From Polaromonas sp. (GTDB lineage: Bacteria; Pseudomonadota; Gammaproteobacteria; Burkholderiales; Burkholderiaceae_C): 64,000 nucleotides of DNA. Shown here in pieces: positions 4,133-34,020 of the stretch. A program made the translations under genes and the position numbers. The stretch covers positions 20,755 through 84,754 of the forward strand of contig JAKFXR010000037.1 of the NCBI GenBank assembly GCA_021731285.1, read 5' to 3'. Each line of letters starts with the position of its first letter. The stretch's first letter is position 1. The notes below the pieces were generated by a model. That model was given only the letters and a program-made list of their open reading frames with translations. It did not search any database and was not told where the DNA came from.

Positions 4133-5386
4133 TTAGCGGTCAATTTCGCCGAACACGATGTCCATCGTGCCGATGACGGCGACGGCATCAGCAATCATGT
4201 GGCCACGCGACATTTCGTCCATGGCGGCCAGATGCGAGAAGCCCGGTGGACGGATCTTCAGGCGGTAGGGTTTGTTGGCGCCATCGCTGACGATGTAGAT
4301 ACCGAACTCGCCCTTGGGGTGTTCGACAGCTGCATAGGCCTCGCCCTCGGGCACATGGAAGCCCTCGGTGAACAGCTTGAAGTGGTGAATCAGCTCTTCC
4401 ATGTTGGACTTCATGGATTCGCGGTCGGGCGCAGCCACCTTGTGGTTGCTGGTGATCACCGGGCCGGGGTTGACGCGCAGCCACTTGATGCACTGCTGGA
4501 TGATGCGGTTGGACTGGCGCATCTCTTCAATGCGGACCAGGTAGCGGTCGTAACAGTCGCCGGTTTTGCCAACGGGAATGTCGAAGTCCATTTTTGCGTA
4601 GACGTCATAGGGCTGCTGCTTGCGCAGGTCCCACGCAAAACCCGAGCCCCTGAGCATGGGGCCGGTGAAACCGAGGTTCAAGGCGCGCTCAGGCGAGACC
4701 ACGCCGACACCAACCGTGCGTTGCTTCCAGATGCGGTTGTCGGTGAGCAGGGTTTCGTATTCGTCGACCAGCCGCGGGAACTGGGTGCAGAAGTCGTCAA
4801 TGAAGTCGAGCAGGGATCCCTGGCGGTTTTCGTTGAGTGCAGCAATGGCTTTGGCGTTTTTGACTTTGCTGACCTTGTACTGCGGCATGGTCTCGGGCAG
4901 ATCGCGGTAAACACCACCCGGGCGGAAGTAGGCGGCGTGCATGCGGGCACCGGAGACCGCCTCGTACATGTCAAACAGGGCCTCACGCTCGCGGAAGCAA
5001 TAAATCAGGATGTTCATCGCGCCGCAATCAAACCCGTGCGCGCCCAGCCACAGCAGGTGGTTGAGCAGGCGGGTGATCTCGGAGAACATCACGCGGATGT
5101 ATTGCGCGCGCTCCGGCACATCAACGCCAATCAGCTTTTCGATGGCCAGGCAGTAGGCGTGCTCGTTGGACATCATCGACACATAGTCGAGGCGGTCCAT
5201 GTAAGGCAGCGACTGGATGTAGGTCTTGCTCTCGGCCAGTTTTTCCGTGGCGCGGTGCAGCAGGCCGATGTGCGGGTCGGCGCGCTGGATCACTTCGCCG
5301 TCAAGCTCAAGCACCAGGCGCAGCACACCATGGGCTGCGGGGTGCTGCGGTCCGAAGTTCAGCGTGTAATTCTTGATCTCGGCCAT
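4133..5386 (-). CDS. nuoD: NADH-quinone oxidoreductase subunit D
   Basis: The 49-kDa subunit of complex I (417 aa), homologous to the large subunit of [NiFe] hydrogenases, which forms the quinone pocket together with NuoB. The N-terminal signature [22 protein letters not shown] is present, with the family motifs [10 protein letters not shown] and LPYMDRLDY following. The C-terminus ends in [10 protein letters not shown], as in typical NuoD. The start codon overlaps the nuoC stop as TAATG, so translation is likely coupled. Confidence 0.97.
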
Positions 5387-5997
5387 TATTGGATTCCGCC
5401 GTAGTTGTCTTCACGGATCACGCGCGGTGTGATTTCGCGCGGTTCGATCGTCACCGGCTGGTAGATCACGCGCCGTTGCTCAGGGTCATAGCGCATTTCG
5501 ACATAACCCGTGGTCGGGAAGTCCTTGCGGAAGGGGTGGCCGATGAAACCATAGTCGGTCAGGATGCGGCGCAGGTCGTTGTGGCCGTCGAAGATGATGC
5601 CGAAGAGGTCAAACGCTTCACGCTCGAACCAGTTGGCCGAATTCCAGACCTCGTTGACCGAAGCCACCACCGGAAAATCATCGTCTTCACAAAAGACCTT
5701 GAGGCGTACACGCTGGTTCAGGCTGACCGACAACAAATGGGAAGCCACGCAATAACGGCGGCCGTCGTAGCGGCCGTCGGCATACTCCGAGTAATCGATG
5801 CCGCACAGGTCGATCAGTTGTTCGAACTGGCAGCCCGGCGAGTCACGCAGGATCAGCGCAGCAGCGAGGTAATTCTGGGCGGATACCACAACCGTCAGCT
5901 CACCCAACGCAACGGAGACCCGTTGGGCCTTGTCGCCCAGGGCAGCGGTAAGGGTAACTGCGAGCTGTTCTGCAGAAGCGGGATGCAAGGGACCCAT
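5386..5997 (-). CDS. nuoC: NADH-quinone oxidoreductase subunit C
   Basis: The 30-kDa subunit of complex I (about 203 aa), a structural partner of NuoD. The family motif [37 protein letters not shown] is readable in pieces as [18 protein letters not shown] and [12 protein letters not shown] near residues 120-160. I chose ATG at 5997, which overlaps the nuoB stop as TGATG. An extra in-frame TTG one codon upstream is less likely. It is separate from nuoD, unlike the fused nuoCD of enterobacteria, and this agrees with a betaproteobacterial origin. Confidence 0.95.
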
Positions 5998-16299: not shown

Positions 16300-16387
16300 C
16301 CGGGGCTGCGGAACCGGCTTCGCCGGGCCGCAGGCGCAGCGGCCCCCTCGGGGGCAGGGAGCTACACGCAGTGAGCGACCGTGGGGG
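16300..16387 (+). repeat. GC-rich dispersed repeat, copy A
   Basis: The core reads ..GCAGGCGCAGCGGCCCCCTC.. and ends ..AGCTACACGCAGTGAGCGACCGTGGGGG. Two further copies in the same orientation are at 42231-42320 and 43197-43279. It contains self-complementary parts (CCGGCTTCGCCGG-like; GGCCCCCTCGGGGGC-like). It lies between tsaD and nasT, ending 35 bp before the nasT start. Confidence 0.75.
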
Positions 16388-16422
16388 CCAGTCACTTGGC
16401 TCGAATCTTGCGTAAAACGGGT

Positions 16423-17055
16423 ATGACCCCGTCCCAGTCGCTGCGCCTCGTGATCATTGCTCCAGATCTGCTGGAAGATGTAGCAACGGACGAGCACGCC
16501 CGCAGTCAGGCGGAGCGTTCGCGCCAGTTGCGTATTGGCTTGCTGGAAGCCGGTTACAACATCGTCGCGGTTCTGCCGGCTGACACTTTCCTCGATGAGC
16601 GGCTGGCGCAGTTGCAGCCCGACATGATCATCGTGGACGCAGAAAGCGAGGCGCGTGATTCCCTCGAGCATGTGGTGATGGCCACACGCGACGCGCGGCG
16701 GCCGATTGTGCTGTTCACCAACGACAACGACACCACCCATGTGAAGGATGCGGTAGCCGCGGGTGTGTCCGCTTACATCGTGGCAGGCCTTTCGGCCGAC
16801 CGCATACGCCCCATCCTGGACGTGGCCATTGCGCGCTTCGAGCACGAACAAGGGCTCAGGCGTGAGCTGGCCGATGTCAGGACCGAGTTGCAGGACCGCA
16901 AGATCATCGACCGGGCCAAGGGCCTGCTGATGCAACGCCAGAAACTCGACGAAGCGGCTGCTTACGAAAAGCTGCGCAAGGCAGCCATGGACAAAGGCCT
17001 GCGCCTTGGCGAGGTGGCGCAGCGCATTCTGGACGCAGCCGATCTTTTGGGGTGA
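16423..17055 (+). CDS. nasT: ANTAR-domain response regulator, NasT-type antiterminator
   Basis: A 210-aa protein with a CheY-like N-terminal receiver (LRLVIIAPDLLED opens strand 1; PDMIIVDAESE carries the likely phosphoacceptor-position Asp) and a C-terminal ANTAR RNA-binding domain from about residue 147 (DRKIIDRAKGLLMQRQKLDEAAAYEKLRKAA read in parts). ANTAR proteins bind paired hexaloop hairpins and prevent transcription termination. NasT controls nitrate-assimilation operons in Azotobacter and Pseudomonas. I start at ATG 16423; an in-frame GTG upstream at 16381 begins within the repeat. No nasS gene is adjacent, so its sensor partner is not obvious. The target is probably the nrtA leader. 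Confidence 0.85.
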   Translation: MTPSQSLRLVIIAPDLLEDVATDEHARSQAERSRQLRIGLLEAGYNIVAVLPADTFLDERLAQLQPDMIIVDAESEARDSLEHVVMATRDARRPIVLFTNDNDTTHVKDAVAAGVSAYIVAGLSADRIRPILDVAIARFEHEQGLRRELADVRTELQDRKIIDRAKGLLMQRQKLDEAAAYEKLRKAAMDKGLRLGEVAQRILDAADLLG

Positions 17056-18701: not shown

Positions 18702-18777
18702 ATACTTTGCTTGCCCTTCAAGGGAAAACTGCCTGATTTACTTCCAACCCTGGTTGCTTCCCCTTCAAGACATACGC

Positions 18778-18793
18778 TGGCACGGCTATTGCT
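18778..18793 (+). promoter_or_regulatory. sigma-54 promoter of the nrt operon
   Basis: The sequence TGGCACGGCTATTGCT matches the consensus TGGCACGNNNNTTGCW at every defined position (GG at -24, GC at -12). The predicted start of transcription is near 18803, nine bases before the ANTAR-type hairpin, giving a leader of about 140 nt. Confidence 0.85.
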
Positions 18794-18811
18794 CTAACTC
18801 CCTCGCAAGAA

Positions 18812-18838
18812 CTTGTACTTCAACGGCGAAGTGGCAAG
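18812..18838 (+). promoter_or_regulatory. ANTAR-target hexaloop hairpin in the nrtA leader
   Basis: The stem CTTG-T-ACTTC / GAAGT-GG-CAAG closes the six-base loop AACGGC (18822-18827), which has A at loop position 1 and G at position 4, the signature of RNA bound by ANTAR antiterminators. It is 13 nt before the terminator hairpin. No second hexaloop hairpin fits between it and the predicted transcription start. Confidence 0.75.
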
Positions 18839-18851
18839 CTCCCTGAACAAA

Positions 18852-18906
18852 GGCGTTCGAACCCTCGCATTCACATTGTGTTTGCACGGGTCGAGCGCCT
18901 TTTTTG
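18852..18906 (+). terminator. leader attenuator before nrtA
   Basis: Arms GGCGTTCGAACCC (18852-18864) and GGGTCGAGCGCC (18888-18899) pair over 12 bp with one bulged A, followed by seven T. It lies 36 bp before the nrtA start codon, so without antitermination most transcripts should stop here. The arrangement matches nas-type leaders regulated by NasR or NasT. Confidence 0.85.
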
Positions 18907-18942
18907 TTTTCTGCTTTTGTTTTTTTAATTCTGGAGACCACC

Positions 18943-20187
18943 ATGACTGATCTGCTGCAATCTTCATTGAAACGCCGCACTGTGTTGCAAGCCGCCGCGG
19001 TAGGTGCCGCCGGTATCAGCCCCGCGTTGCGCGCTGTTGTGTATGCCCAGGGCTCCGACGCCCCCGAGAAAAAGGAGGTCAAGATTGGCTTCATTCCCCT
19101 GACCGACTGCGCATCCGTGGTCATGGCCTCGGTGCTGGGCATCGACAAGAAGTACGGCGTCACCATCATCCCGACCAAGGAAGCCAGCTGGGCAGGCGTG
19201 CGCGACAAACTGGTCAGTGGTGAGCTGGACATGGCGCATTCGCTGTACGGCCTGATCTATGGCGTGCACCTCGGCACATCCGGCCCGAAGAAGGACATGG
19301 CGGTATTGATGACGCTGAACCAGAACGGTCAAGCCATCACGCTGAGCAAGAAACTGGCTGACAAGGGTGCGGTGGACGCCGCGTCTCTGGCCAAAGTGAT
19401 GGCTGCTGAAAAACGCGAATACACCTACGCCCAGACTTTCCCGACCGGCACCCACGCCATGTGGCTGTACTACTGGCTGGCCAGTGTCGGTGTCAATCCA
19501 ATGAAGGACGTCAAAGTCATCACCGTGCCACCGCCGCAGATGGTGGCCAATATGCGGGTCGGCAACATGGACGGTTATTGCGTCGGCGAACCCTGGGGCC
19601 ACCGCGCCATCGCCGACGGTATCGGCATCACGGCCGTCACCACCCAGGACATCTGGAAAGACCACCCCGAAAAAGTGCTGGGCACCACCGCCGATTTCGT
19701 CAAAAAAAACCCGAATACCGCACGCGCAGTCACTGCCGCCATCATTGAAGCCGGCAAATGGATTGACGCCAGCCTGGGCAACAAGAACAAGATGGCCGAG
19801 ACTGTGGCCGACAAGTCCTACGTCAACACCAGCGTGGACGTGATCAACCAGCGCATCCTTGGCCGCTACCAGAACGGCATGGGGAAAACCTGGGACGACC
19901 CGAACCACATGAAGTTTTACAACGACGGTGCGGTGAGCTTCCCTTACCTGTCCGATGGCATGTGGTTCCTGACCCAGCACAAGCGCTGGGGTCTGCTCAA
20001 GGAGCATCCGGACTACCTGGCTGTGGCCAAACAGATCAACCAGATCGACATCTACAAGCAGGCTGCGACCGCCGCCAAAGCCAGCGTTCCCAAAGAACTC
20101 ATGCGCAGCAGCAAGATGATCGACGGGGTGGTCTGGGACGGCAAGGATCCCAAAAAGTACGCCGACAGCTTCAAAGTCCGCGCTTGA
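18943..20187 (+). CDS. nrtA: nitrate ABC transporter substrate-binding protein (CmpA/NrtA family)
   Basis: A 414-aa protein with a twin-arginine type leader (LKRRTVLQAAAVGAAG, residues about 8-23) and cleavage near VYAQ. The mature domain opens KEVKIGFIPLTDCASVVMA, characteristic of the NrtA/CmpA family of nitrate- or bicarbonate-binding proteins, with GYCVGEPWGHRA near residue 210. It should capture nitrate or nitrite in the periplasm for NrtB-NrtC. Start ATG 18943 has the ribosome site CTGGAG 8 bp upstream. It heads an operon with nrtB (30 bp) and nrtC (9 bp). NasS regulators belong to the same superfamily, but the export signal argues for a transporter. Confidence 0.88.
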   Translation: MTDLLQSSLKRRTVLQAAAVGAAGISPALRAVVYAQGSDAPEKKEVKIGFIPLTDCASVVMASVLGIDKKYGVTIIPTKEASWAGVRDKLVSGELDMAHSLYGLIYGVHLGTSGPKKDMAVLMTLNQNGQAITLSKKLADKGAVDAASLAKVMAAEKREYTYAQTFPTGTHAMWLYYWLASVGVNPMKDVKVITVPPPQMVANMRVGNMDGYCVGEPWGHRAIADGIGITAVTTQDIWKDHPEKVLGTTADFVKKNPNTARAVTAAIIEAGKWIDASLGNKNKMAETVADKSYVNTSVDVINQRILGRYQNGMGKTWDDPNHMKFYNDGAVSFPYLSDGMWFLTQHKRWGLLKEHPDYLAVAKQINQIDIYKQAATAAKASVPKELMRSSKMIDGVVWDGKDPKKYADSFKVRA

Positions 20188-22011: not shown

Positions 22012-22067
22012 GGAACACATAGCAGCGACAAGGTCGCACCTGTATGCAAGCAAGGGAGGAGTTTTCA

Positions 22068-24209
22068 ATGTCCGCAGTCTTACCCGCCAACGGAGCCCTC
22101 CGGGCCGCACCAACCCAGGATACGCCCGCCCGACGTGAACGGCCCGCGCGCTCCCGTGGTTTTGCTTCACTGGGAAAATACCGCGAGCTGATCATTGCCG
22201 TCGGCTTTTTCCTGCTGTTCGACCTCGGGGTGCTGGTTCTCAATTTCTATACCTCGTTCCAGATCGCCGAAGACGCCGTGGGTATCAACCTGGCAGGACG
22301 CCAGCGCATGCTGTCGCAGCGCACAGCCAAAGCCCTGCTGTCGGTAGAAGCAGCCAGGATCAAAGGTGTGCCTGCCACCGATGAACTTGAGGAGCTGAAA
22401 AATGCTGTGAAGCTGTTTGACGCTTCGCTCAAAGGCTTCCAGAGCGGTGCCACGGTGCCAGGCGGGAATGGCAAGCCGGTCTTTCTGCCTGCCGCCCAGG
22501 GCGACAAAGCCGCAGACATCCTGAAAAAAGCACAGGATCTCTGGACGCCCTACCAGGTCAACCTCGCCCCAGTGCTGAGCGGAGCGGCAAGCGAAACCGA
22601 ACTGAAAGAGGCGGCCGACTACGCAAAAGCCAACAACCTGAAGCTGCTGGCCTTGATGAACGAACTGACCACGACGCTGGAGGCAGTGGCCTCAGACCGG
22701 GCCAGCGTCCTGCGCATGGTGCAGACCGGCGGCATTGTCCTGGCTTTGCTGAATTTCGCATTTATTCTCTTCAAGTTTCTGCGCCGGCTGAATACTTCCG
22801 ACGCTGCCATTGAGGCGGCTACCGAAGAAAACCGCGAGATCCTGACCAGCGTGCGCGAGGGACTGTTTCTGCTGACGCCCGAGCACCGGCTGGGCTCGCA
22901 GCTGTCGCGCTCGTCGCATGGGCTTTTCGGCAAGACCCTGGTGCCCGGCCAGAATTTCTTTGAGTTGCTTTCCCCCCTGGTGTCGGAAAAGGCCCTGACA
23001 GACGCGCGCAACTATGTGGGCCTGCTGTTTTCCCCTCACGTAAAAGAGCAATTGATCCAGGGCATCAACCCCCTCGCCGAGGTCGAGCTCACCGTGAAAA
23101 ACCGGCTGGGCCAGGACACCCCACGCTTCCTGTCGTTTCACTTCAACCGGGTGCAGGACGGAACGGCTGTGCGCCACCTGCTGGTGACCGTGCAGGACAT
23201 TTCGCAGAAGGTCGAACTCGAGGCCAAGCTGACCACCGAACGCCATCGCTCGCAAAAAGAGCTGTCCATGATGCTCAAGGCCTTCGAGACCGACCCGGCC
23301 ATGATGCGTGCCTTTGTCGAGCGGGCCGAGGCGTCCTTGCTGGAGGTGAACGACCTGCTTCGCAGCACTTCGTCGGCCGCATCTGAAACCCAGGTCCTCA
23401 AAGCGGTTGACGGGGCCTATCGCCGCATCCACGCCATCAAGGGAGATGCAGCCTCACTGGGTCTGGAAATTCTCGCCTCGCTGGCCCATCAGTTTGAAAA
23501 CGAGTTGCAGAAACTCAAGGACAGCGGCGTGGCCACCGGCGACGCCCTGCTGGCCCTGCCCTTGCCGCTGGAAGACCTGCTGAACAAGGTCGCAGCCTTC
23601 AAGGCGATGAGTCAGAAAAGAGGTAGCGGCTCGCAAGCCGAGCCGGCACCGACGCCCCAGCAGCTCAACGCAAGCTTGCAGCAACTGGCGGCCGATGTGG
23701 CCCATGATGTCGGCAAGCGCGTCAACGCCGACGTGCGCATGTCCAGTGTGCTGGACCTGCAGGCCGAGAAAATCGACCTGGTCCGTGAGATAGCCATCCA
23801 GCTGGTTCGCAACGCTGTGGTGCACGGAGTGGAAGTTCCGCCCGTCAGGCTGGCCGCCGGCAAGGCGGTTCAGGGCGAGGTCACCGTCAACCTCAGCCGG
23901 GACGCAAATGGTCAATACCTGCTCAGTGTGCGGGACGATGGCGCGGGCCTCAATGCTGCCAACGTGCGACTGCGCCTGATGGCCCTGGGTTGGTACACGG
24001 CAGAGCAGTTGCTCAGCTTCAGCGACAAACAGATCGTCGCGCACATTTTCAAGCCGGGCTTTTCCACCGCCCATGCGGCTTCCGCACACGCCGGCCGCGG
24101 TGTGGGTCTGGACCTGGTGCAGGCCAATGTGCAACGTCTGGGTGCGCGCTTGCTGCTATCCAGCATCCCTGGACAACACACCGAGTTCAAGGTGTCGTTC
24201 GCTGCTTGA
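22068..24209 (+). CDS. membrane PilJ-HPt-CheA-like histidine kinase (putative nitrate sensor)
   Basis: A 713-aa protein. TM1 (about 40-62) and TM2 (221-238) bracket a PilJ-type helical periplasmic domain containing INLAGRQRMLSQRTAK (residues 73-88), which resembles the nitrate-binding P-box of NarX/NarQ. A PAS-like region (about 255-385) follows. An HPt domain has His455 in RRIHAIKGDAASLG, and a CheA-type ATPase has an N-box (IQLVRNAVVHGVE), DDGAGLN and GRGVGLDLVQ. There is no CheW-binding domain. Start ATG 22068 is chosen for the ribosome site GGGAGGAG. It is followed by a CheY-like receiver and a CheX-like phosphatase and sits directly after nrtABC. The nitrate-sensing role is inferred. Confidence 0.8.
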   Translation: MSAVLPANGALRAAPTQDTPARRERPARSRGFASLGKYRELIIAVGFFLLFDLGVLVLNFYTSFQIAEDAVGINLAGRQRMLSQRTAKALLSVEAARIKGVPATDELEELKNAVKLFDASLKGFQSGATVPGGNGKPVFLPAAQGDKAADILKKAQDLWTPYQVNLAPVLSGAASETELKEAADYAKANNLKLLALMNELTTTLEAVASDRASVLRMVQTGGIVLALLNFAFILFKFLRRLNTSDAAIEAATEENREILTSVREGLFLLTPEHRLGSQLSRSSHGLFGKTLVPGQNFFELLSPLVSEKALTDARNYVGLLFSPHVKEQLIQGINPLAEVELTVKNRLGQDTPRFLSFHFNRVQDGTAVRHLLVTVQDISQKVELEAKLTTERHRSQKELSMMLKAFETDPAMMRAFVERAEASLLEVNDLLRSTSSAASETQVLKAVDGAYRRIHAIKGDAASLGLEILASLAHQFENELQKLKDSGVATGDALLALPLPLEDLLNKVAAFKAMSQKRGSGSQAEPAPTPQQLNASLQQLAADVAHDVGKRVNADVRMSSVLDLQAEKIDLVREIAIQLVRNAVVHGVEVPPVRLAAGKAVQGEVTVNLSRDANGQYLLSVRDDGAGLNAANVRLRLMALGWYTAEQLLSFSDKQIVAHIFKPGFSTAHAASAHAGRGVGLDLVQANVQRLGARLLLSSIPGQHTEFKVSFAA

Positions 24210-24266
24210 TATGGCCCCCACCTTCGTCAGACCATCAAAAGAAACACTGCCACCGGGGAGAACACC

Positions 24267-24638
24267 ATGCGGCTGCTGATTGTTGACGACTCGAACATGA
24301 TCCGTACGCGCATCTCCCGCGTGGTGCAGAACGGCGGTCTCAAGGGTGTGGTGCTGGCGGGCCTGGCCAAAAACGGGCGCGAGGCGCTGCGTCTGGCGCG
24401 GGCCACCCGGCCGGAGGTCGTCACCATGGACCTGACCATGCCCGAGATGGACGGGATTGAATGCATTCAGGAAATGCTCAAATTCGACCCCAGCATCAAC
24501 ATCCTGGTGGTCAGCGCGCTCAGCGACAAATCGACCGCCATCGAGGCTCTCAAACTGGGAGCGCGCGGCTTCGTCGCCAAGCCGTTTTCGGATGAAGAAT
24601 TGCAGATCGCGCTGCTTGATGTTTCAGAAATGCGTTAG
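24267..24638 (+). CDS. CheY-like single-domain response regulator
   Basis: A 123-aa receiver with no output domain. The acidic pocket is Asp7-Asp8, the phosphoacceptor is Asp55 in VVTMDLTMPEMDG, the switch Ser is in ILVVSALS, and the conserved Lys is in FVAKPFSDEEL. It is most similar in style to CheY or the CheB receiver (LLIVDDSNMIRTRI). It lies 57 bp after the PilJ-CheA-like kinase, its likely phosphodonor, and 89 bp before a CheX-like phosphatase. Its target is unknown. Confidence 0.88.
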   Translation: MRLLIVDDSNMIRTRISRVVQNGGLKGVVLAGLAKNGREALRLARATRPEVVTMDLTMPEMDGIECIQEMLKFDPSINILVVSALSDKSTAIEALKLGARGFVAKPFSDEELQIALLDVSEMR

Positions 24639-24727
24639 GGCCACTGCCATCGCCGCGCGCCGCAATCGCCCTGTTTTAATCATGTCCGCACTTACATATA
24701 GCCTGAACAGGCCCCAAGGAAAACACA

Positions 24728-25186
24728 GTGGCTACCCTGCAGGAAAATGATCTCAAGCTGTTTGTCGACTCGATCAGGAACTACCTGACCGTTACGACCC
24801 GCCAGGAGCCCAAGATCACCTCCGCCTTTTTGGGCATGGGCGATGTGACGGGATATGAATTCAACGGCATCGTCACCTTCTCGGGCAGCCACAACGGCCA
24901 CGTGGTCGTCTCCATGCCGGACAAGCTGGTGCGCGAAGTGCTGCTGCTGCAGCATGAAACCGACCTGAGTGACGGCAACCTGCTCGACGCCGTGGGAGAA
25001 ATTGCCAACACGCTGGCTGGCAACGCCCGCAAGGTGCTGGGCTCGGAGCTGCAGATTTCGGTACCCATCAAACTGCAGGGTGCCAACGGCATCAAGGCGC
25101 GTGTCCGCAAGCGCCCCTATGTCATCACCCTGCGCTGGAATCACTACGACGCCATGGTCTGCGTGGACATGGAGCGGCGCCACTAA
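24728..25186 (+). CDS. CheX-like receiver phosphatase
   Basis: A 152-aa protein starting at GTG with AAGGAAA 10 bp upstream. The CheC/CheX catalytic signature is visible as LLDAVGEIANTLAG, giving Glu91 and Asn94 in the ExxN pattern that dephosphorylates CheY-type receivers. The surrounding segment (ITSAFLGMGDVTGYEFNGIVTFSG) fits the CheX fold. With the two preceding genes it completes a kinase-receiver-phosphatase set without receptor-methylation genes. No flagellar or chemotaxis genes are nearby, so a role in nitrate signalling is more likely than motility. Confidence 0.8.
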   Translation: MATLQENDLKLFVDSIRNYLTVTTRQEPKITSAFLGMGDVTGYEFNGIVTFSGSHNGHVVVSMPDKLVREVLLLQHETDLSDGNLLDAVGEIANTLAGNARKVLGSELQISVPIKLQGANGIKARVRKRPYVITLRWNHYDAMVCVDMERRH

Positions 25187-26993: not shown

Positions 26994-28109
26994 ATGGCTT
27001 TGATTCTGGCGATGGATGATGACGAGGCGATACGCATGTTGATCGTCGCCGCGCTGCGCGCTGACGGTCACACGGTACTGGAGGCCGCAAATGGACTGGC
27101 GGGTCTGGCGCTGGTGCGCGAGCACGCCCCTGACCTGGTGATCAGCGACATCAACATGCCGGAGATGGACGGCCTGTCCATGCTCAAAGCCTTGCGGGCC
27201 GACCCCGCGATTCAGGCCACGCCGGTTATTTTGCTCACTTCGCTGCAGGAGCGCGAGCATGTTCGTCAGGGCATGACACGCGGCGCCGATGACTACCTCA
27301 CCAAGCCCCTTGTCTTTGACGAGTTGCGCGAGGCTACCGCAGCCCAGCTGGACAAACACCTGATGCGCCAGTCTGCGCAGGACACTGCAGTGGACGAGGC
27401 GCTCGACGTCGCCCTGAAGGAACAGAAGCAGCGCCTGATACGGCTGTATGAAAAAAAGCTGCTCAGCGAGCTGGACCAAAAATGGCCAACCGCCGAGTCC
27501 CTCCAGGAAGACCGGCAATTCGCCAATGCCACGGTGCTGTTTGTCGATGTGGTCAGCTTCCCCGCGCTGGCGGAAAAACTCTCCCCCGCCGAGCTGAGCC
27601 AGGTGGTGCACGAGTTCTACAACAACGCCGGCAACACCGTTTACCTGTTCGGCGCATACCACATGCAGTTTGTCGGTGAGGGCCTGTTGGCGGTCTTTGT
27701 GGACAGCACCGACACGGACACCGTCAACAGCGGCCTGCGCGCGACCAAAAGCGCCCTGGGTCTGATCGACGCAGCGCACCGGGTGCAGGGGTTTCTCTCA
27801 AGCCGTTTCCCCGGACGCGCGCTGCCGCGGTTCGAAGTGTGTGTCAGCCTGAACAGCGGCGCGGTCACTCTGGCCAGGCTTCAGGAGCCGCTGTGGGGGT
27901 CCTCCCAGATCCTGCCTGTGGGTGACACGGTCAGCGCCTGCCTGCAACTGCAAAAGCAGGCAGCCGCGGCGGGCTGGAAAGTTGCCGCCAGTGCTTCGCT
28001 GTTACAGGGTGTGAGGGAGACCCTGAAAACAGGTAAGCGCAAGCGCTTTTCGATACCCGGACGCAGCTCCGCGCTGGAAGCCGTCGAGCTATTGGGTCTG
28101 GGGGCATAG
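26994..28109 (+). CDS. response regulator with adenylate/guanylate cyclase-like output domain
   Basis: A 371-aa protein. The receiver domain (1-125) has the acidic pocket MDDDEAIRM, phosphoacceptor Asp in LVISDINMPEMDG, and Lys in DDYLTKPL. A coiled linker is at about 130-170. The C-terminal class III cyclase-like domain (about 175-370) begins ATVLFVDVVSFPALAEKLSPAEL, with the first metal-binding Asp present. The second metal position, normally in GDG, reads GEGLLAVF, so activity may be altered or lost. It sits convergently with the Ser/Thr kinase gene within the nitrate island. A nucleotide-signalling or scaffold role is inferred. Confidence 0.78.
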   Translation: MALILAMDDDEAIRMLIVAALRADGHTVLEAANGLAGLALVREHAPDLVISDINMPEMDGLSMLKALRADPAIQATPVILLTSLQEREHVRQGMTRGADDYLTKPLVFDELREATAAQLDKHLMRQSAQDTAVDEALDVALKEQKQRLIRLYEKKLLSELDQKWPTAESLQEDRQFANATVLFVDVVSFPALAEKLSPAELSQVVHEFYNNAGNTVYLFGAYHMQFVGEGLLAVFVDSTDTDTVNSGLRATKSALGLIDAAHRVQGFLSSRFPGRALPRFEVCVSLNSGAVTLARLQEPLWGSSQILPVGDTVSACLQLQKQAAAAGWKVAASASLLQGVRETLKTGKRKRFSIPGRSSALEAVELLGLGA

Positions 28110-28134
28110 GCTCGGAAGTGCCGGCGCTTCCTGC

Positions 28135-29904
28135 CTACTTGGGCAGGAAAAGCAGCCAGTACATCAGCAGCAGGTTGAACAACACCGACACGGCCAGGCC
28201 AATTTTCCACAAGGCCGTCGGGTCGCGTTGTATCAATGGCGTGGCCGGCTGAGCCGTCAACGGCCGTGAGGCCCCGCGCTCCAGGGCAAGCAGCATTTCT
28301 TCGGCCGTTTCAAAGCGCTTGCGCTTGTCGCGTGCCACCGCCTTGAGCACCACGTGGTCCAGCCAGATCGGCACCTCCGGGTTATGGCGGCTGGGCGCAG
28401 TCGGGTCGCGGTAATAGCGTCCCGACTGGTAAGGCAACACCTCACCATAAGGCAGGCGTCCGGTCAGCAACTGGTAGAGCGTTACGCCCAATGCAAACAA
28501 GTCACTCTGACTGTCGGGCAACTCCTCGGGCTCGTCTTTGCCCGAGTTGCCAGCCTTGGTGTTAAAGCCCCATTGCTCGGGATTGATGTAGCTGGGCGTG
28601 CCGGCATGCAGCTTGCGCATGGACTCGGGCTCACGGCCAGTGAGCGCCACACCAAGATCGAGCAGGCGCAGCACACCGTCTTCGCCCTGGTGCAGATTGG
28701 CGGGTTTGACATCGCGGTGAACCACGCTCTGGCGATGCAGCAAACCCAGCGCCCGGGCCGCCTGCGTGGCCACCGACAGCACCTGGGCCAGGCTGAAGCG
28801 GTGCTGGCGATCAAGCAGTTGCTGCAGTGTCTCGCCGGCATGCCAGTCATACAGCAAATAAAAGGCGGTGGGCGGTGGGAGACCCGCAAGCTGATCGTGA
28901 ATGGCAACCAGATTGCCTGCAGAGCGTGAGGACTGCATGCGTTTGGCCAGCCACGCCTCATGGGCCAGCATGGCCCGCTCCTGCGGATCGTGGGCCCGGG
29001 AAGGATGAAGCGTTTTGAGCGCGTAGAGGCGCTGGGTCGACGGGTCCCGCACCTGATAAAGCACATTGATGCCGTTGTCGGCGACTGGCGCCGTCAGGAT
29101 CAAGCCATCGAGGCTGTCCCCCACCTTCAGACGCAAGGGGATGGGCAGGGACAGAGCGCGGCGGTTTTCGTCCTGCAGGTTGGCCTCCAGCAGGCCCAGC
29201 ACACGCACCACCAGCGCTGTCACATTGTCCTGCGCCCCCGCCGCCAATGCGGCGTCCACCATTTGCCGGCTGATGTGCTGCGCATGACTTTCGCCGGGGG
29301 TGCCCGGCGCGCCCGCGAGCTGGCCGAGCTTTTTGTCCGGGAGCACGTTGTGCACCCCGTCGGACAGCAACACAAAGACATCACCAACCTGCAGATCGCC
29401 CTGGAAATAATCCACCACGAGCCGGTCTTCAGCGCCGACGCAGCGCAGCAACTGGTGCCGGAAATCGGGGTGATCCATCACGTGGTCGGTGCTGAGCTGG
29501 GTCAGGCGGCCCTCGCGCAGCAGGTAGGCCCGGGTATCGCCGATGTGCGCCACCGCATAGGACTGCCCGCGCAGCACCACCGCCGTGAGCGTGGTTAGCC
29601 CCAAGGCCGGGTGCCGGCGCCGGTTCAGACCCGCCAGCCAGGCGTTTTGGGCGCCAATGATGCGGTCCAGCGCAACCGTGGTGTCCCAGGTTTCGGGCGT
29701 GCCGTAATAGTCGCGAACCAGGCTGGTCACCGTGGTCTGTGCCGCCTCCTTGCCCATGCCGCCGGTGCTGACACCGTCAGCGATCGCCACGATGGAGCCC
29801 ATGGCCTCCTGACCGGGCTCGGGCAGCATGGCCGCGCAGAAGTCTTCGTTGATGTCCTTGCGGCCGGCCAGCGAGGCAAAGCCGATGTCTATTTCAAATG
29901 CCAT
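28135..29904 (-). CDS. bifunctional PP2C phosphatase / Ser-Thr protein kinase
   Basis: A 589-aa fusion. The N-terminal PP2C domain (1-245) has metal-binding motifs GRKDINEDF, AIADGVSTGG, GDTRAYLL and LLSDGVHNVL. An eukaryotic-like kinase domain follows (about 270-560) with the catalytic loop VVHRDVKPANLH, a DLGVAL metal motif and GTPSYINPEQWG. A C-terminal transmembrane helix (IGLAVSVLFNLLLMYWLLFL) anchors it. Pseudomonas aeruginosa has a similar kinase gene next to nirBD and nasA, so the link to nitrate assimilation is conserved. Start ATG 29904 is preferred to one five codons upstream. Substrate unknown. Confidence 0.88.
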   Translation of the reverse strand: MAFEIDIGFASLAGRKDINEDFCAAMLPEPGQEAMGSIVAIADGVSTGGMGKEAAQTTVTSLVRDYYGTPETWDTTVALDRIIGAQNAWLAGLNRRRHPALGLTTLTAVVLRGQSYAVAHIGDTRAYLLREGRLTQLSTDHVMDHPDFRHQLLRCVGAEDRLVVDYFQGDLQVGDVFVLLSDGVHNVLPDKKLGQLAGAPGTPGESHAQHISRQMVDAALAAGAQDNVTALVVRVLGLLEANLQDENRRALSLPIPLRLKVGDSLDGLILTAPVADNGINVLYQVRDPSTQRLYALKTLHPSRAHDPQERAMLAHEAWLAKRMQSSRSAGNLVAIHDQLAGLPPPTAFYLLYDWHAGETLQQLLDRQHRFSLAQVLSVATQAARALGLLHRQSVVHRDVKPANLHQGEDGVLRLLDLGVALTGREPESMRKLHAGTPSYINPEQWGFNTKAGNSGKDEPEELPDSQSDLFALGVTLYQLLTGRLPYGEVLPYQSGRYYRDPTAPSRHNPEVPIWLDHVVLKAVARDKRKRFETAEEMLLALERGASRPLTAQPATPLIQRDPTALWKIGLAVSVLFNLLLMYWLLFLPK

Positions 29905-29958
29905 GCACCATCCATGCAATTGTCATGCCCGGATTTGGTGCATTGCAACAATTCAAAT

Positions 29959-31236
29959 CTAACCTACAAGCATCTGCATGCTGCGCTCATAGTGCAATGA
30001 AAGCCGCTCAAATGCATCAAGCAGGTCTTCGCTGGCCACAGCCAGACGCTCCAGACCTTCTTTCCTGTTGGTGGAGCCAATCCCTGCCAGCAGGCGCTCC
30101 CAGCAGGACCCGGCCGTCGCGAGCTCCTGCCGGATGTCCTTGCTGGTCAATGGAATCTCGCCCAGCTGACGCAGCGCTTCCTCGAAGGCCTGCCTGGCAG
30201 CAGCCATGCCGGCTTCGCTGCCCGGGATGGAAGACGGGCCGGCAACCACCTCGAGGAGGGCATATTTGGCAAACCGCTGGCTGAGCATGCGCTGACGCCC
30301 GGCCAGGTTGAGGACATGCAGGGGCGGCGTGGCACCGGCGCTTTCGAGGCTGCTGGTCAGGCGCTCTGCCGCCAGCAGCAGTTGCTCGGCCAGCGCATTG
30401 ATACGGTCAAGATCGCCAGCCACAGCCTGGCCCTGCAAAGCCTGCTTGAGTTCCCCCCAACTGCTGGCAATCTGGCGCAACAAGTCGCCAAAAGTGGGCT
30501 GGGAAAGGCTTTTGCCCAGCGCTGCGATATTGGCATCAATGCGCAAGCTCGACTCTTCAAAGCGTTCCTGCACCCGGGCTGCCGTGACTCCTGCCATTCG
30601 CAGCAAGGCCAGCTTGACCAGCCGCTGCGACAGCATCCGCAACTGCCCCGAGCGGTTGACATCTTCGGCAAACCGGGCCGAGTGGATGATGTGCCGCGAC
30701 ACCTGCCCCAACCGCTGGTTGCTCTGCATGGAAGCAGTACGCAGCATCTGGAAGGCGTCGTCGTCCGTCACCCCGCGGGCACGCATCAAAATGCCCTTGG
30801 CCCTGTCGACCATTTTTCGCTCTTCAAGGCGGCTGGTGACATCCAGCACCTGCGCCCGCAGCGCCTGCTCCCGGCCAAAGCGGGCCTGCGCCAGTTGAAC
30901 CAGGGACCGCAGGCGTTGCTGGCCATAAGCGTTGACAACATAAGCATGCACCCCCACCCCGGTGGCGCGCGTGATCCTGCCGGCGTCACCGTCCGTGGTG
31001 AAGACGATCACCGGACATGGCGCTGTTTCGTCAATGATCTGCAGGGCCTTGAAAAGCTCTTCGCCAGGCAATGGATCCCAGCAAATCAATACATCCGGTG
31101 CATGGGCCAGCACATCACGCACCAACCTGGAGCGGTCAGGGGTGCATGCCAGAACCTGCAGCCCCACGGCTTGCAGGTCTGCAGCCAGCGGAGGCGCGCC
31201 GGTTGCGTCACTCAAACTTACCAATGCGGAGGTCAT
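29959..31236 (-). CDS. ANTAR antiterminator fused to two PilJ-type (P-box-like) sensor modules
   Basis: A 425-aa soluble protein with no membrane helix. Residues 1-125 form a degenerate receiver (an Asp in VLICWDPLP at about 54). Residues about 132-188 are an ANTAR domain (ERKMVDRAKGILMRARGV.. LGQVSRHII). Two PilJ-like helical modules follow, with RSGQLRMLSQRLVK (195-208) and LAGRQRMLSQRFAK (311-324). The second is nearly identical to the motif in the PilJ-CheA-like kinase at 22068. Both resemble the P-box that binds nitrate in NarX/NarQ. It is divergent from nirB, whose leader carries ANTAR-type hairpins. Functionally it may replace NasR, with domains in reversed order. Confidence 0.82.
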   Translation of the reverse strand: MTSALVSLSDATGAPPLAADLQAVGLQVLACTPDRSRLVRDVLAHAPDVLICWDPLPGEELFKALQIIDETAPCPVIVFTTDGDAGRITRATGVGVHAYVVNAYGQQRLRSLVQLAQARFGREQALRAQVLDVTSRLEERKMVDRAKGILMRARGVTDDDAFQMLRTASMQSNQRLGQVSRHIIHSARFAEDVNRSGQLRMLSQRLVKLALLRMAGVTAARVQERFEESSLRIDANIAALGKSLSQPTFGDLLRQIASSWGELKQALQGQAVAGDLDRINALAEQLLLAAERLTSSLESAGATPPLHVLNLAGRQRMLSQRFAKYALLEVVAGPSSIPGSEAGMAAARQAFEEALRQLGEIPLTSKDIRQELATAGSCWERLLAGIGSTNRKEGLERLAVASEDLLDAFERLSLHYERSMQMLVG

Positions 31237-31333
31237 AAAAATCAGAAGTTGAGGGGGAATCCGGAGCGATCGCGCGCAAATCGCACACCGCCCCAGTCAG
31301 CGATGTTAGCGCCAACGCAGCCACACAAGAGCT

Positions 31334-31349
31334 TGGCACAGCTTTTGCA
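31334..31349 (+). promoter_or_regulatory. sigma-54 promoter of the nirB operon
   Basis: TGGCACAGCTTTTGCA differs from TGGCACGNNNNTTGCW at one position. The predicted start of transcription is near 31359, about 26 nt before the first leader hairpin and 229 nt before nirB. I saw no exact NtrC dyad upstream. Confidence 0.8.
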
Positions 31350-31384
31350 TTGTCCTTTGCGGGCGTAACGACGCGTCCAGCCTT

Positions 31385-31422
31385 GCAAAAGCACTGCAGG
31401 TTTTGCGCACAACGACGTGCGT
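31385..31422 (+). promoter_or_regulatory. tandem ANTAR-target hexaloop hairpins in the nirB leader
   Basis: Hairpin P1 is GCAAAAGC / GGTTTTGC (31385-31392 and 31399-31406, one G-G mismatch) with loop ACTGCA. P2 is GCAC / GTGC (31407-31410 and 31417-31420) with loop AACGAC. Both six-base loops have A at position 1 and G at position 4. The P2 loop differs from the nrtA leader loop AACGGC by one base. This is the paired arrangement recognised by ANTAR dimers, though the two stems directly adjoin each other. Confidence 0.75.
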
Positions 31423-31438
31423 AGTGATGTGCCTCCTT

Positions 31439-31465
31439 CCGGCGTCAAGCCGGGCCCCTGTTTTT
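31439..31465 (+). terminator. possible leader terminator before nirB
   Basis: Stem CCGGC/GCCGG (31439-31453, loop GTCAA), then CCCCTG before a run of five T (31461-31465). The gap between stem and T-run makes it weaker than the nrtA attenuator; an alternative pairing CTCCT/AGGAG exists. Confidence 0.4.
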
Positions 31466-31480: not shown

Positions 31481-31591
31481 ATGATTTCCCCGCTTCTTGA
31501 TCGACACCAGTTTTTGCCTGCCACGGTTTGCAGCGGGCATGCCATTTGCACTTGGTTCCACGCACCCCATCACTCTGGATTGAGCTCATGA
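31481..31591 (+). CDS. 36-aa leader ORF translationally coupled to nirB
   Basis: ATG at 31481 follows a strong ribosome site (GGAGAGGG, 31470-31476 region). The 36-codon frame reads MISPLLDRHQFLPATVCSGH.. and ends with TGA overlapping the nirB ATG as ATGA. nirB itself has no good ribosome site, so this frame may feed ribosomes to nirB. The peptide has no recognisable domain. It contains two Cys and several His, but I do not assign a function. The frame could also be an accident of the leader. Confidence 0.45.
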   Translation: MISPLLDRHQFLPATVCSGHAICTWFHAPHHSGLSS

Positions 31592-34020
31592 AAAAATCAA
31601 AACTCGTCATGGTCGGCAATGGCATGGCCGGCGTGCGTACCATCGAGGAACTGCTCAAGGTAGCCCCTGAGCTGTACGATATTTCCGTGTTTGGCGCAGA
31701 GCCGCACCCCAACTACAACCGCATCCTGCTGTCGCCAGTGCTCGCTGGCGAGCAGACGCTTGACGAGATCGTGCTCAACAGCTGGGACTGGTACAAGGAC
31801 AACCACATCACGCTGCACGCCGGCAAAAAGGTGGTCGAGGTGGACCGCATCAAGCGGGTTGTGCGCGCCGACGACGGCACAGAGGAAAGTTATGACCGGC
31901 TGCTGATGTGCACCGGCTCCAACCCCTTCATCCTGCCCATTCCCGGCAAGGACCTTCAGGGCGTGATTGCCTACCGCGACATCGCCGACACCAACGCCAT
32001 GATTGAGGCATCCGCAAAATACAAGCGGGCGGTGGTCATAGGTGGCGGCCTTCTGGGACTGGAAGCGGCCAACGGCCTGATGCTGCGCGGTATGCAGGTG
32101 ACGGTGGTCCACGTGATGCCCTGGCTGATGGAGCGCCAGCTCGACGACGTCGCAGGACGGTTGCTGCAGAAATCACTGGAAGACCGCGGCCTGAAGTTCC
32201 TGATCGGCGCGCAGACGCAAGAACTCATTCCCGACAAGGATGGCCGTGTCATGGCCATCAAGTTCAAGGACGGCCTGGAGCTGCCGACCGACCTGGTCGT
32301 CATGGCTGTCGGCATCCGCCCCAACACCGAGCTGGCTGAGTCCATGCGCCTGCACTGCAACCGCGGGATTGTTGTCAACGACACCATGCAGACGGTCACC
32401 GATGCGCGCATTTATTCCGTTGGTGAGTGCGCTGCGCACCGCGGCATCGCCTACGGTCTGGTGGCGCCGCTGTTCGAGCAGGCCAAGGTCGCTGCCAACC
32501 ACCTGGCGCAATTTGGCATTGGACGCTACACCGGTTCGCTGACATCAACCAAGCTCAAGGTCACTGGCATCGACCTGTTTTCCGCCGGCGAGTTCATGGG
32601 GGGTGAAGGAACCGAACAAATCGTGATGTCCGACCCCTCCGGCGGCGTCTACAAAAAGCTGGTGATCAAGAACGACAAGCTGGTAGGTGCCTGCCTGTAC
32701 GGCGACACCGTCGATGGCAGCTGGTATTTCAAGCTGCTGCGTGATGGCCGCAGCGTCAAGGACATCCGCGACAAATTGCTCGTGGGCGAATCCAACATCG
32801 GCGACACCGGCCATGAAGGTCACAGCAGGGCCGCAACCATGCCGGATGATGCCGAGGTCTGCGGCTGCAACGGCGTCACCAAAGGCACGATCTGCAAGGC
32901 CATCAAGGAAAAGGGCCTGTTCACCTTGGACGAGGTGAAAAAACACACCAAAGCCAGCGCCTCCTGTGGTTCCTGTACCGGGCTGGTCGAGCAGATCCTC
33001 ATGTTCACGGCTGGCGGCGACTACTCGGCCACGCCCAAACTCAAGGCCATGTGCGCCTGCACCGACCACGGCCACCAGGCCGTGCGCGAGGCCATCACGG
33101 CCAACAAACTGCTCAAGATCGCAGACGTTTTCAAGTTCATGGACTGGAAGACACCCAACGGCTGCTCAAGCTGCCGCCCCGCTGTCAACTACTACCTGAT
33201 CTCCAGCTGGCCCAAAGAGGCCAAGGACGACCCGCAAAGCCGTTTCATCAACGAACGCAGCCACGCCAACATCCAGAAAGACGGTACCTACTCCGTCATT
33301 CCCCGCATGTGGGGCGGCGAAACGACAGCCAGCGAACTGCGCCGCATCGCCGACGCGGTGGACAAATACAAGATTCCCACAGTCAAGGTCACCGGCGGCC
33401 AGCGTATCGACTTGCTGGGCGTCAAAAAGGAAGATTTGCAAAACGTGTGGAAAGACATTGGCATGCCCAGTGGCCATGCTTACGCCAAGGCACTGCGCAC
33501 GGTGAAAACCTGTGTCGGCAGCGAGTGGTGCCGCATGGGCACGCAGGACAGCACGCAAATGGGCAAGGACCTGGAGCGCGCCATGTGGCGCATGTATGCG
33601 CCGCACAAAGTCAAGTTTGCGGTCTCCGGCTGCCCGCGCAATTGCGCCGAGGCCGGCATCAAGGACGTCGGCGTCATCGGCGTGGACTCGGGCTGGGAGA
33701 TGTACATCGCCGGCAACGGCGGCATCAAGACCGAAGTGGCCCACTTCTTCACCAAGGTGAAGACCTCCGAGGAAGTGCTGGAGTACACCGGCGCCTTCAT
33801 GCAGCTGTACCGCGAGGAAGGCTGGTACCTGGAGCGCACGGTGCACTACGTGGGCCGCGTGGGTCTGGACTACGTCAAGAAAAAAATTCTGGAAGACCAC
33901 GACTTGCGCCGCGCCCTGTGGGCCCGCCTGCAGGCCGCGCTGGAAGGCGAGCCGGATCCCTGGTTTGAATTCGACAAGGCCTCGGTGGACACACGCCAGT
34001 TCGAAGCCCTGACAGCCTGA
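31588..34020 (+). CDS. nirB: assimilatory nitrite reductase (NAD(P)H), large subunit
   Basis: Cytoplasmic enzyme that reduces nitrite to ammonium with NAD(P)H and siroheme. It is 810 aa. The N-terminal FAD/NAD domain has VMVGNGMAGVRTIEE and the NAD motif VVIGGGLLGLEAANG. A [2Fe-2S] BFD-like region follows (CGCNGVTKGTIC.. and CGSCTGLV near 425-475, with a second set near 500-540). The C-terminal siroheme/[4Fe-4S] domain has TCVGSEWCRMG and SGCPRNCAEAGIKD. Start MKKSKLVMVGNGMAG at 31588. First gene of a long operon with nirD, nasA, dmsBC-like, two further genes and cobA. Confidence 0.96.
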   Translation: MKKSKLVMVGNGMAGVRTIEELLKVAPELYDISVFGAEPHPNYNRILLSPVLAGEQTLDEIVLNSWDWYKDNHITLHAGKKVVEVDRIKRVVRADDGTEESYDRLLMCTGSNPFILPIPGKDLQGVIAYRDIADTNAMIEASAKYKRAVVIGGGLLGLEAANGLMLRGMQVTVVHVMPWLMERQLDDVAGRLLQKSLEDRGLKFLIGAQTQELIPDKDGRVMAIKFKDGLELPTDLVVMAVGIRPNTELAESMRLHCNRGIVVNDTMQTVTDARIYSVGECAAHRGIAYGLVAPLFEQAKVAANHLAQFGIGRYTGSLTSTKLKVTGIDLFSAGEFMGGEGTEQIVMSDPSGGVYKKLVIKNDKLVGACLYGDTVDGSWYFKLLRDGRSVKDIRDKLLVGESNIGDTGHEGHSRAATMPDDAEVCGCNGVTKGTICKAIKEKGLFTLDEVKKHTKASASCGSCTGLVEQILMFTAGGDYSATPKLKAMCACTDHGHQAVREAITANKLLKIADVFKFMDWKTPNGCSSCRPAVNYYLISSWPKEAKDDPQSRFINERSHANIQKDGTYSVIPRMWGGETTASELRRIADAVDKYKIPTVKVTGGQRIDLLGVKKEDLQNVWKDIGMPSGHAYAKALRTVKTCVGSEWCRMGTQDSTQMGKDLERAMWRMYAPHKVKFAVSGCPRNCAEAGIKDVGVIGVDSGWEMYIAGNGGIKTEVAHFFTKVKTSEEVLEYTGAFMQLYREEGWYLERTVHYVGRVGLDYVKKKILEDHDLRRALWARLQAALEGEPDPWFEFDKASVDTRQFEALTA

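Follow-up and report, generated by a model that had tools for sequence, protein, structure and literature searches.

A soluble PilJ-ANTAR regulator divergent from nirB in Polaromonas, a candidate one-component nitrate-responsive antiterminator

Results

Domain organization of the regulator

The window, the whole 64-kb stretch of Polaromonas DNA that was analysed, encodes a 425-residue regulator on its reverse strand. The parts of the protein and their evidence are as follows.

29959–31236, (−): pseudo-receiver–ANTAR–PilJ–PilJ regulator, 425 amino acids (Pfam, 40 full-length homologues, alignment, AlphaFold pLDDT 88)
30685–30837, (−): ANTAR domain, residues 134–184 (Pfam, alignment to 4akk)
30334–30690, (−): PilJ module 1, residues about 183–301, N-box VNRSGQLRMLSQR at residues 193–205 (Pfam, alignment, model)
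29962–30333, (−): PilJ module 2, residues about 302–425, McpN-type N-box LNLAGRQRMLSQR at residues 309–321 (Pfam, alignment, model, PDB sequence match)

The ANTAR domain was identified by Pfam with an E value of 1.8e-18 (66.5 bits against a curated cut-off of 27.3). PilJ (PF13675) exceeded its cut-off in two stretches (E 2.6e-17, 63.4 bits against 26.6), and Response_reg stayed below its own (19.7 bits against 30.2). Residue inspection shows that the receiver is degenerate: Trp53 occupies the acceptor position, strand 1 has no acidic pair, and Asn102 replaces the usual Lys. The acceptor position is also variable among relatives, with Asp in 21 and Glu in 8 of 41 aligned sequences and Tyr, His, Gln or Trp in others. 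These data confirm the original prediction of a degenerate receiver, an ANTAR domain and two PilJ modules.

No transmembrane stretch was found in the regulator, and its highest 19-residue Kyte-Doolittle mean is 1.2. The regulator is a soluble, cytoplasmic protein, as had been predicted. A relaxed N-box pattern run in six frames over the 64-kb window gave one match outside the regulator, the PilJ protein at 22284. In contrast to the regulator, this Hpt/HATPase kinase (22044–24209) is membrane-bound. The segment from 22044 to 25186 encodes the kinase (PilJ with a perfect N-box, Hpt and HATPase), then a CheY-like receiver and a CheX-like phosphatase. The set sits inside the nitrate transport cluster, is conserved in several Polaromonas and Rhodoferax loci, and resembles a nitrate-sensing phosphorelay.

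The nirB leader RNA

The regulator gene was predicted to be divergent from nirB, and assignment of nirB by TIGR02374 bears this out. The two genes are separated by 351 nt. This region and the gene beyond it contain the following features.

31274–31289, (+): possible NtrC-type site, GCGCAAATCGCACACC; several relatives have TGCAAGTCGCGCACCA (leader alignment)
31334–31348, (+): sigma-54-type promoter TGGCAC-N5-TTGC; a pattern of this form matched in 38 of 38 leaders
31361–31378, (+): leader hairpin P1, hexaloop AACGAC (MFE fold, covariation)
31404–31423, (+): leader hairpin P2, hexaloop AACGAC (MFE fold, covariation)
31438–31454, (+): weak terminator-like hairpin with CCCCTGTTTTT after it, below significance in the window
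31588–34020, (+): nirB, nitrite reductase large subunit, predicted to be under the regulator's control (TIGR02374, 937 bits); nirD and the gene of a NasA-like nitrate reductase come next

Both P1 and P2 are present in the predicted MFE structure, just downstream of the sigma-54-type promoter. The leader set consisted of the window and 37 relatives, and covariation was measured over 37 distinct sequences. Across P1 and P2, 96.7% of cells were paired, 9 of 13 pairs had two-sided changes, and none of 500 shuffles scored as high. The P2 loop has A1 and G4 in all 38 leaders. The P1 loop also has G4 in 38/38, and its first position is A in 26 leaders and G in the other 12. An RNA with two hexaloop hairpins is a described target of ANTAR proteins (PMC3369931). 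The claim that the nirB leader carries ANTAR-type hairpins is therefore confirmed by the two AACGAC hexaloops, the MFE fold and the covariation.

Two other elements lie downstream of P2. A possible 36-residue leader ORF (31481–31591) has a Shine-Dalgarno sequence and a stop codon that overlaps the nirB start (ATGA); four Polaromonas-type relatives are the only others with this arrangement. A role for the ORF as an attenuator was weighed and dropped, its occurrence being confined to the Polaromonas-like group. In about nine relatives a second sigma-54-type promoter stands 33–36 nt upstream of the nirB start codon, and the window has a near match at 31535–31549. Being downstream of the ANTAR leader, it would bypass the leader.

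Beyond P2 come a short GC hairpin and a modest run of U. The window terminator is not clearly above chance. Over the set, terminator-like hairpins after P2 reach p<=0.1 in 14 of 38 leaders, the window not among them, a weak enrichment. These weak terminators would fit an output other than relief of intrinsic termination, in which the same protein, responding to the same signal, binds P1–P2 through its ANTAR domain and acts on translation, Rho-dependent termination or RNA stability of nirB and narK. Several narK leaders point the same way: after P2 they have a GC hairpin and, shortly afterwards, the start codon, and they lack a U-run. We consider such an output unlikely. About a third of the leaders do have terminator-like hairpins, and two other ANTAR proteins work by antitermination: NasR acts in this manner at nasF (PMC7496416), and at the Pseudomonas nirBD leaders, where leader transcription depends on sigma-54 and NtrC, NasT is required for antitermination (PMC12830290). 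By analogy with NasR and Pseudomonas NasT, the PilJ-ANTAR regulator is predicted to be a nitrate-activated antiterminator of nirB-nirD-nasA.

Distribution and genetic linkage

A genome-wide scan identified 40 full-length homologues with 48–69% identity, mostly from Polaromonas, Rhodoferax and Hydrogenophaga, and the PilJ-ANTAR family is found mainly in Comamonadaceae. The fusion is present in 32 of 201 sampled genomes of the window's family (about 16%). A search of 274 class-level genomes found no fusion outside that family, and one fusion was found in another family of the order (G217). The "possible new" antiterminator of the original prediction is thus not unique to this genome, and no published description of its architecture was found in the open-access literature searched.

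The regulator gene is divergent from nirB, with a gap of 244–491 nt, in 37 of the 39 loci having nirB in range. It faces a NarK-type transporter gene in several distant relatives, and there the nirB-leader covariance model finds the leader before narK. One Polaromonas locus (L043) has two regulator copies with a leader opposite each. At positions 4901–5896 of L043, the leader motif precedes an asparagine-rich protein with repeats of about 7 residues (NHxLLxxN), upstream of a narK-like gene. In the window, 26994–29919 encodes a receiver-cyclase-like protein and a fusion of a PP2C phosphatase with a Ser-Thr kinase; the kinase/phosphatase gene neighbours nirB or narK in most loci examined.

The leader model matched 20 of the 201 family genomes, 14 with the regulator and 6 without it, and 18 genomes have the regulator alone. 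Co-occurrence gives a Fisher value of 8e-9, uncorrected for phylogeny. Leader and regulator are adjacent in 13 of the 14 co-occurring genomes; in the remaining one the fusion is elsewhere and the leader is also at nirB. Five fusion-less genomes still have the leader upstream of nirB, and in one of these a NIT-ANTAR gene is close by. The leader RNA is therefore not specific to PilJ-ANTAR, and is a general ANTAR target of nirB in the window's family. The sixth leader-alone match, which lacks nitrate genes in its vicinity, is probably due to chance, and about half of the most divergent loci are without a convincing leader match. The weak covariance-model matches that were inspected elsewhere in the genome fall in coding sequence and were taken as chance: 5555–5634 lies in an NADH dehydrogenase subunit gene, and a match at another locus (L052) also looks coding.

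Other ANTAR proteins in the same genome

The genome also encodes a solitary NasT (16381–17055) beside nrtABC and a NasR-type NIT-ANTAR protein on contig 146, beside a second NrtA copy that is 82% identical to the one in the window. Together with PilJ-ANTAR this makes three ANTAR regulators, each located next to nitrate genes. NasS was not recognised in the assembly, which is 87.6% complete, and no NasS-like gene lies beside the PilJ-ANTAR gene.

The NasT or NIT-ANTAR protein could use the nirB leader. One of them could even be its main user, with PilJ-ANTAR controlling other RNAs or having an auxiliary role; the retention of the leader before nirB in fusion-less genomes, the presence of all three ANTAR proteins here and the control of nirB by NasT in Pseudomonas (PMC12830290) are consistent with this division of labour. 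We nevertheless judge it quite improbable. The adjacency of leader and PilJ-ANTAR gene in nearly all co-occurring genomes argues against it, as does the way the leader tracks the PilJ-ANTAR gene when the opposite gene switches from nirB to narK. The NasT of the window adjoins nrtABC, which has its own leader with a hexaloop and a strong terminator.

In the original prediction the nrtA leader (18797–18920) was named together with the nirB leader as an RNA that the regulator may bind. It has one clear hexaloop hairpin and a strong terminator and lacks the dual-hairpin motif of the nirB model, which corrects the prediction on this point. An Rfam scan of 14000–42000 returned just a sub-threshold P11 match, located in this leader. 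The interval 18766–18943 contains a sigma-54 promoter, a hexaloop AACGGC (18822–18827) and a very strong terminator (18852–18908), and is a likely NasT target. The true start of nrtA is probably the ATG at 18943, not the TTG at 18904.

The tandem PilJ region as a predicted nitrate sensor

Residue conservation was analysed in an alignment of the window protein with 40 full-length homologues (41 sequences), extended by 20 more divergent sequences from the window's family to 61. Nitrate-binding PilJ domains are marked by the N-box [IVL]-[ND]-x-A-G-x-Q-R-M-L-[ST]-Q, and nitrate binding by McpN requires its N-box arginine, R61 (PMC6381276). The N-box motifs of the regulator are VNRSGQLRMLSQ and LNLAGRQRMLSQ. 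Module 2 fits the published pattern exactly. Module 1 of the window protein departs from it twice (S for A, L for Q) and retains the binding Arg. The putative nitrate-binding residues R200 and R316 are kept in every one of the 61 sequences, the most distant of which have about 35% identity. Invariant in all 41 are N194, R195, G197, L199, R200, M201, S203 and R205 of module 1, and N310 and G313–R321 of module 2.

In a profile search, the best PDB sequence match to the tandem region was McpN (6gcv, E 7.6e-9), over module 2. Next came Pseudomonas aeruginosa PilJ and then, weakly and over N-box 1, NarX and NarQ. The tandem-PilJ profile gave far lower scores or no match on the other PilJ proteins of the genome. 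The scores above the PilJ cut-off, the N-box pattern and the McpN match support the predicted N-box/P-box-type sensor, and both N-boxes are McpN-type; the tandem PilJ region is predicted to bind nitrate. The proposed sensing of nitrite found no such support, as McpN, which is the nearest relative with a solved structure, binds nitrate alone (PMC6381276).

It is very unlikely that the tandem region has lost nitrate binding and become a structural or protein–protein module, as may be the case for the P. aeruginosa PilJ receptor: that receptor also has two PilJ domains, does not bind nitrate (PMC6381276) and is among the fold matches, but it lacks the N-box, whereas both N-boxes here are nearly invariant in 61 sequences and the best match of module 2 is a nitrate receptor.

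The RNA-binding residues of NasR are R340, W362, R366 and N373 (PMC7496416). Alignment to 4akk places R140, F162, R166 and N173 of the regulator at these positions. R140 and R166 are kept in 61/61 sequences, the W362 position is Phe or Tyr in the family, and the N373 position is mostly Asn.

Predicted structure and origin

AlphaFold modelled the whole protein with a pLDDT of 88. The tandem PilJ part was modelled confidently as two four-helix bundles (pTM 0.89), and in the full model a single helix, residues 176–215, spans the end of ANTAR and N-box 1. The receiver and ANTAR parts dominated the full-length fold search. Matches to the tandem part were weak and include PilJ (8wdf, 7zjr) and NarQ (6xyn, probability 0.97); NasR 4akk was absent among its 50 listed fold matches. 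Homology of the tandem PilJ region to NIT was considered and rejected, since hhalign found no similarity to the NIT-ANTAR protein of the same genome.

The first 189 residues of the regulator resemble NasT, and the family profile matches NasT-type genes with E about 1e-51. Stand-alone exported proteins from nitrate-assimilation loci of other Burkholderiales contain the same full-length tandem module with both N-boxes (E 1e-33 to 1e-44). Unlike the regulator, they have apparent signal peptides and no ANTAR domain. They are mostly 256–310 residues long, occur in other families, and several lie inside nirB/nirD/nrtABC/narK/NasT clusters. Those at L093–L111, with apparent Sec or Tat signals and two N-boxes, are possible periplasmic nitrate-binding proteins. 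Because the N-terminal half resembles NasT and the C-terminal half resembles these proteins, a fusion of the two would be the simplest account of the origin of the regulator.

A more specific arrangement is possible, though we lean against it. R200 and R316 of one chain would form a single intramolecular cytoplasmic nitrate site that replaces the homodimer site of NarX and McpN, and the continuous helix would signal directly into ANTAR. The regulator would then have arisen when NasT was joined to an exported tandem-PilJ protein, and would add an independently evolved third type of nitrate-responsive antiterminator to NasR and NasS-NasT.

Discussion

The observed domains, residue conservation, RNA structure and linkage make it likely that the PilJ-ANTAR protein is a one-component cytoplasmic nitrate-responsive antiterminator for nitrite and nitrate assimilation, acting like NasR with another sensor and the opposite domain order; its ligand, its RNA binding, the termination step and the role of the pseudo-receiver are predictions. 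Under nitrogen limitation, NtrC and sigma-54 would start transcription of the nirB leader, as the promoter suggests. The leader RNA would fold into P1 and P2, the covariation-supported hairpins with ANTAR-type hexaloops. Intracellular nitrate would bind the tandem PilJ region through N-box residues R200 and R316. Since the final ANTAR helix is predicted to run without a break into the N-box helix of module 1, binding may then shift the position or dimerisation of ANTAR. ANTAR would grip P1 and P2 and RNA polymerase would proceed into nirB-nirD-nasA, termination being the weakest step of the scheme. The pseudo-receiver probably serves dimerisation, not phosphorylation.

Like NasR of Klebsiella oxytoca (NIT-ANTAR, 4akk), the regulator is a soluble one-component protein that joins ANTAR to a nitrate sensor, a role predicted for its PilJ part, both are linked with a nitrate/nitrite assimilation operon whose leader RNA has two hexaloops, and the equivalents of R340 and R366 are conserved. 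The NasR sensor is an N-terminal NIT domain, whereas the PilJ-ANTAR sensor is a C-terminal tandem PilJ region accompanied by a pseudo-receiver, with no Pfam NIT (PF08376) match and no profile similarity. The Pfam order and the hhalign result support the original prediction of a reversed order and a different sensor family. With no similarity to NIT-ANTAR detected, the regulator is not a NasR in sequence terms. NasT controls a nirB leader, as is predicted for PilJ-ANTAR, but consists of pseudo-receiver and ANTAR alone and is signalled to by NasS, an NrtA-like protein encoded separately; PilJ-ANTAR adds the C-terminal tandem PilJ region as a putative fused sensor. McpN of P. aeruginosa and NarX and NarQ of Escherichia coli share the PilJ family sensor with an N-box or P-box. 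In those proteins the sensor is a single periplasmic domain of a membrane receptor, and nitrate is bound where the two subunits of a homodimer meet, whereas PilJ-ANTAR has two modules in one cytoplasmic chain.

The occurrence of N-box PilJ domains in transcriptional regulators was noted in general terms in the 2019 McpN paper (PMC6381276), and the sensor part alone is no surprise. The PilJ-ANTAR architecture is probably undescribed; no paper describing it was found in the open-access literature searched.

If the proposed function is correct, nitrate-responsive antitermination has taken three or more forms that act on one kind of RNA target. The regulator would offer a compact soluble protein for studying how PilJ domains bind nitrate and couple binding to an output without membranes. 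It would also explain the nitrate induction of nirB and narK in many Comamonadaceae, including Polaromonas, Rhodoferax and Hydrogenophaga.
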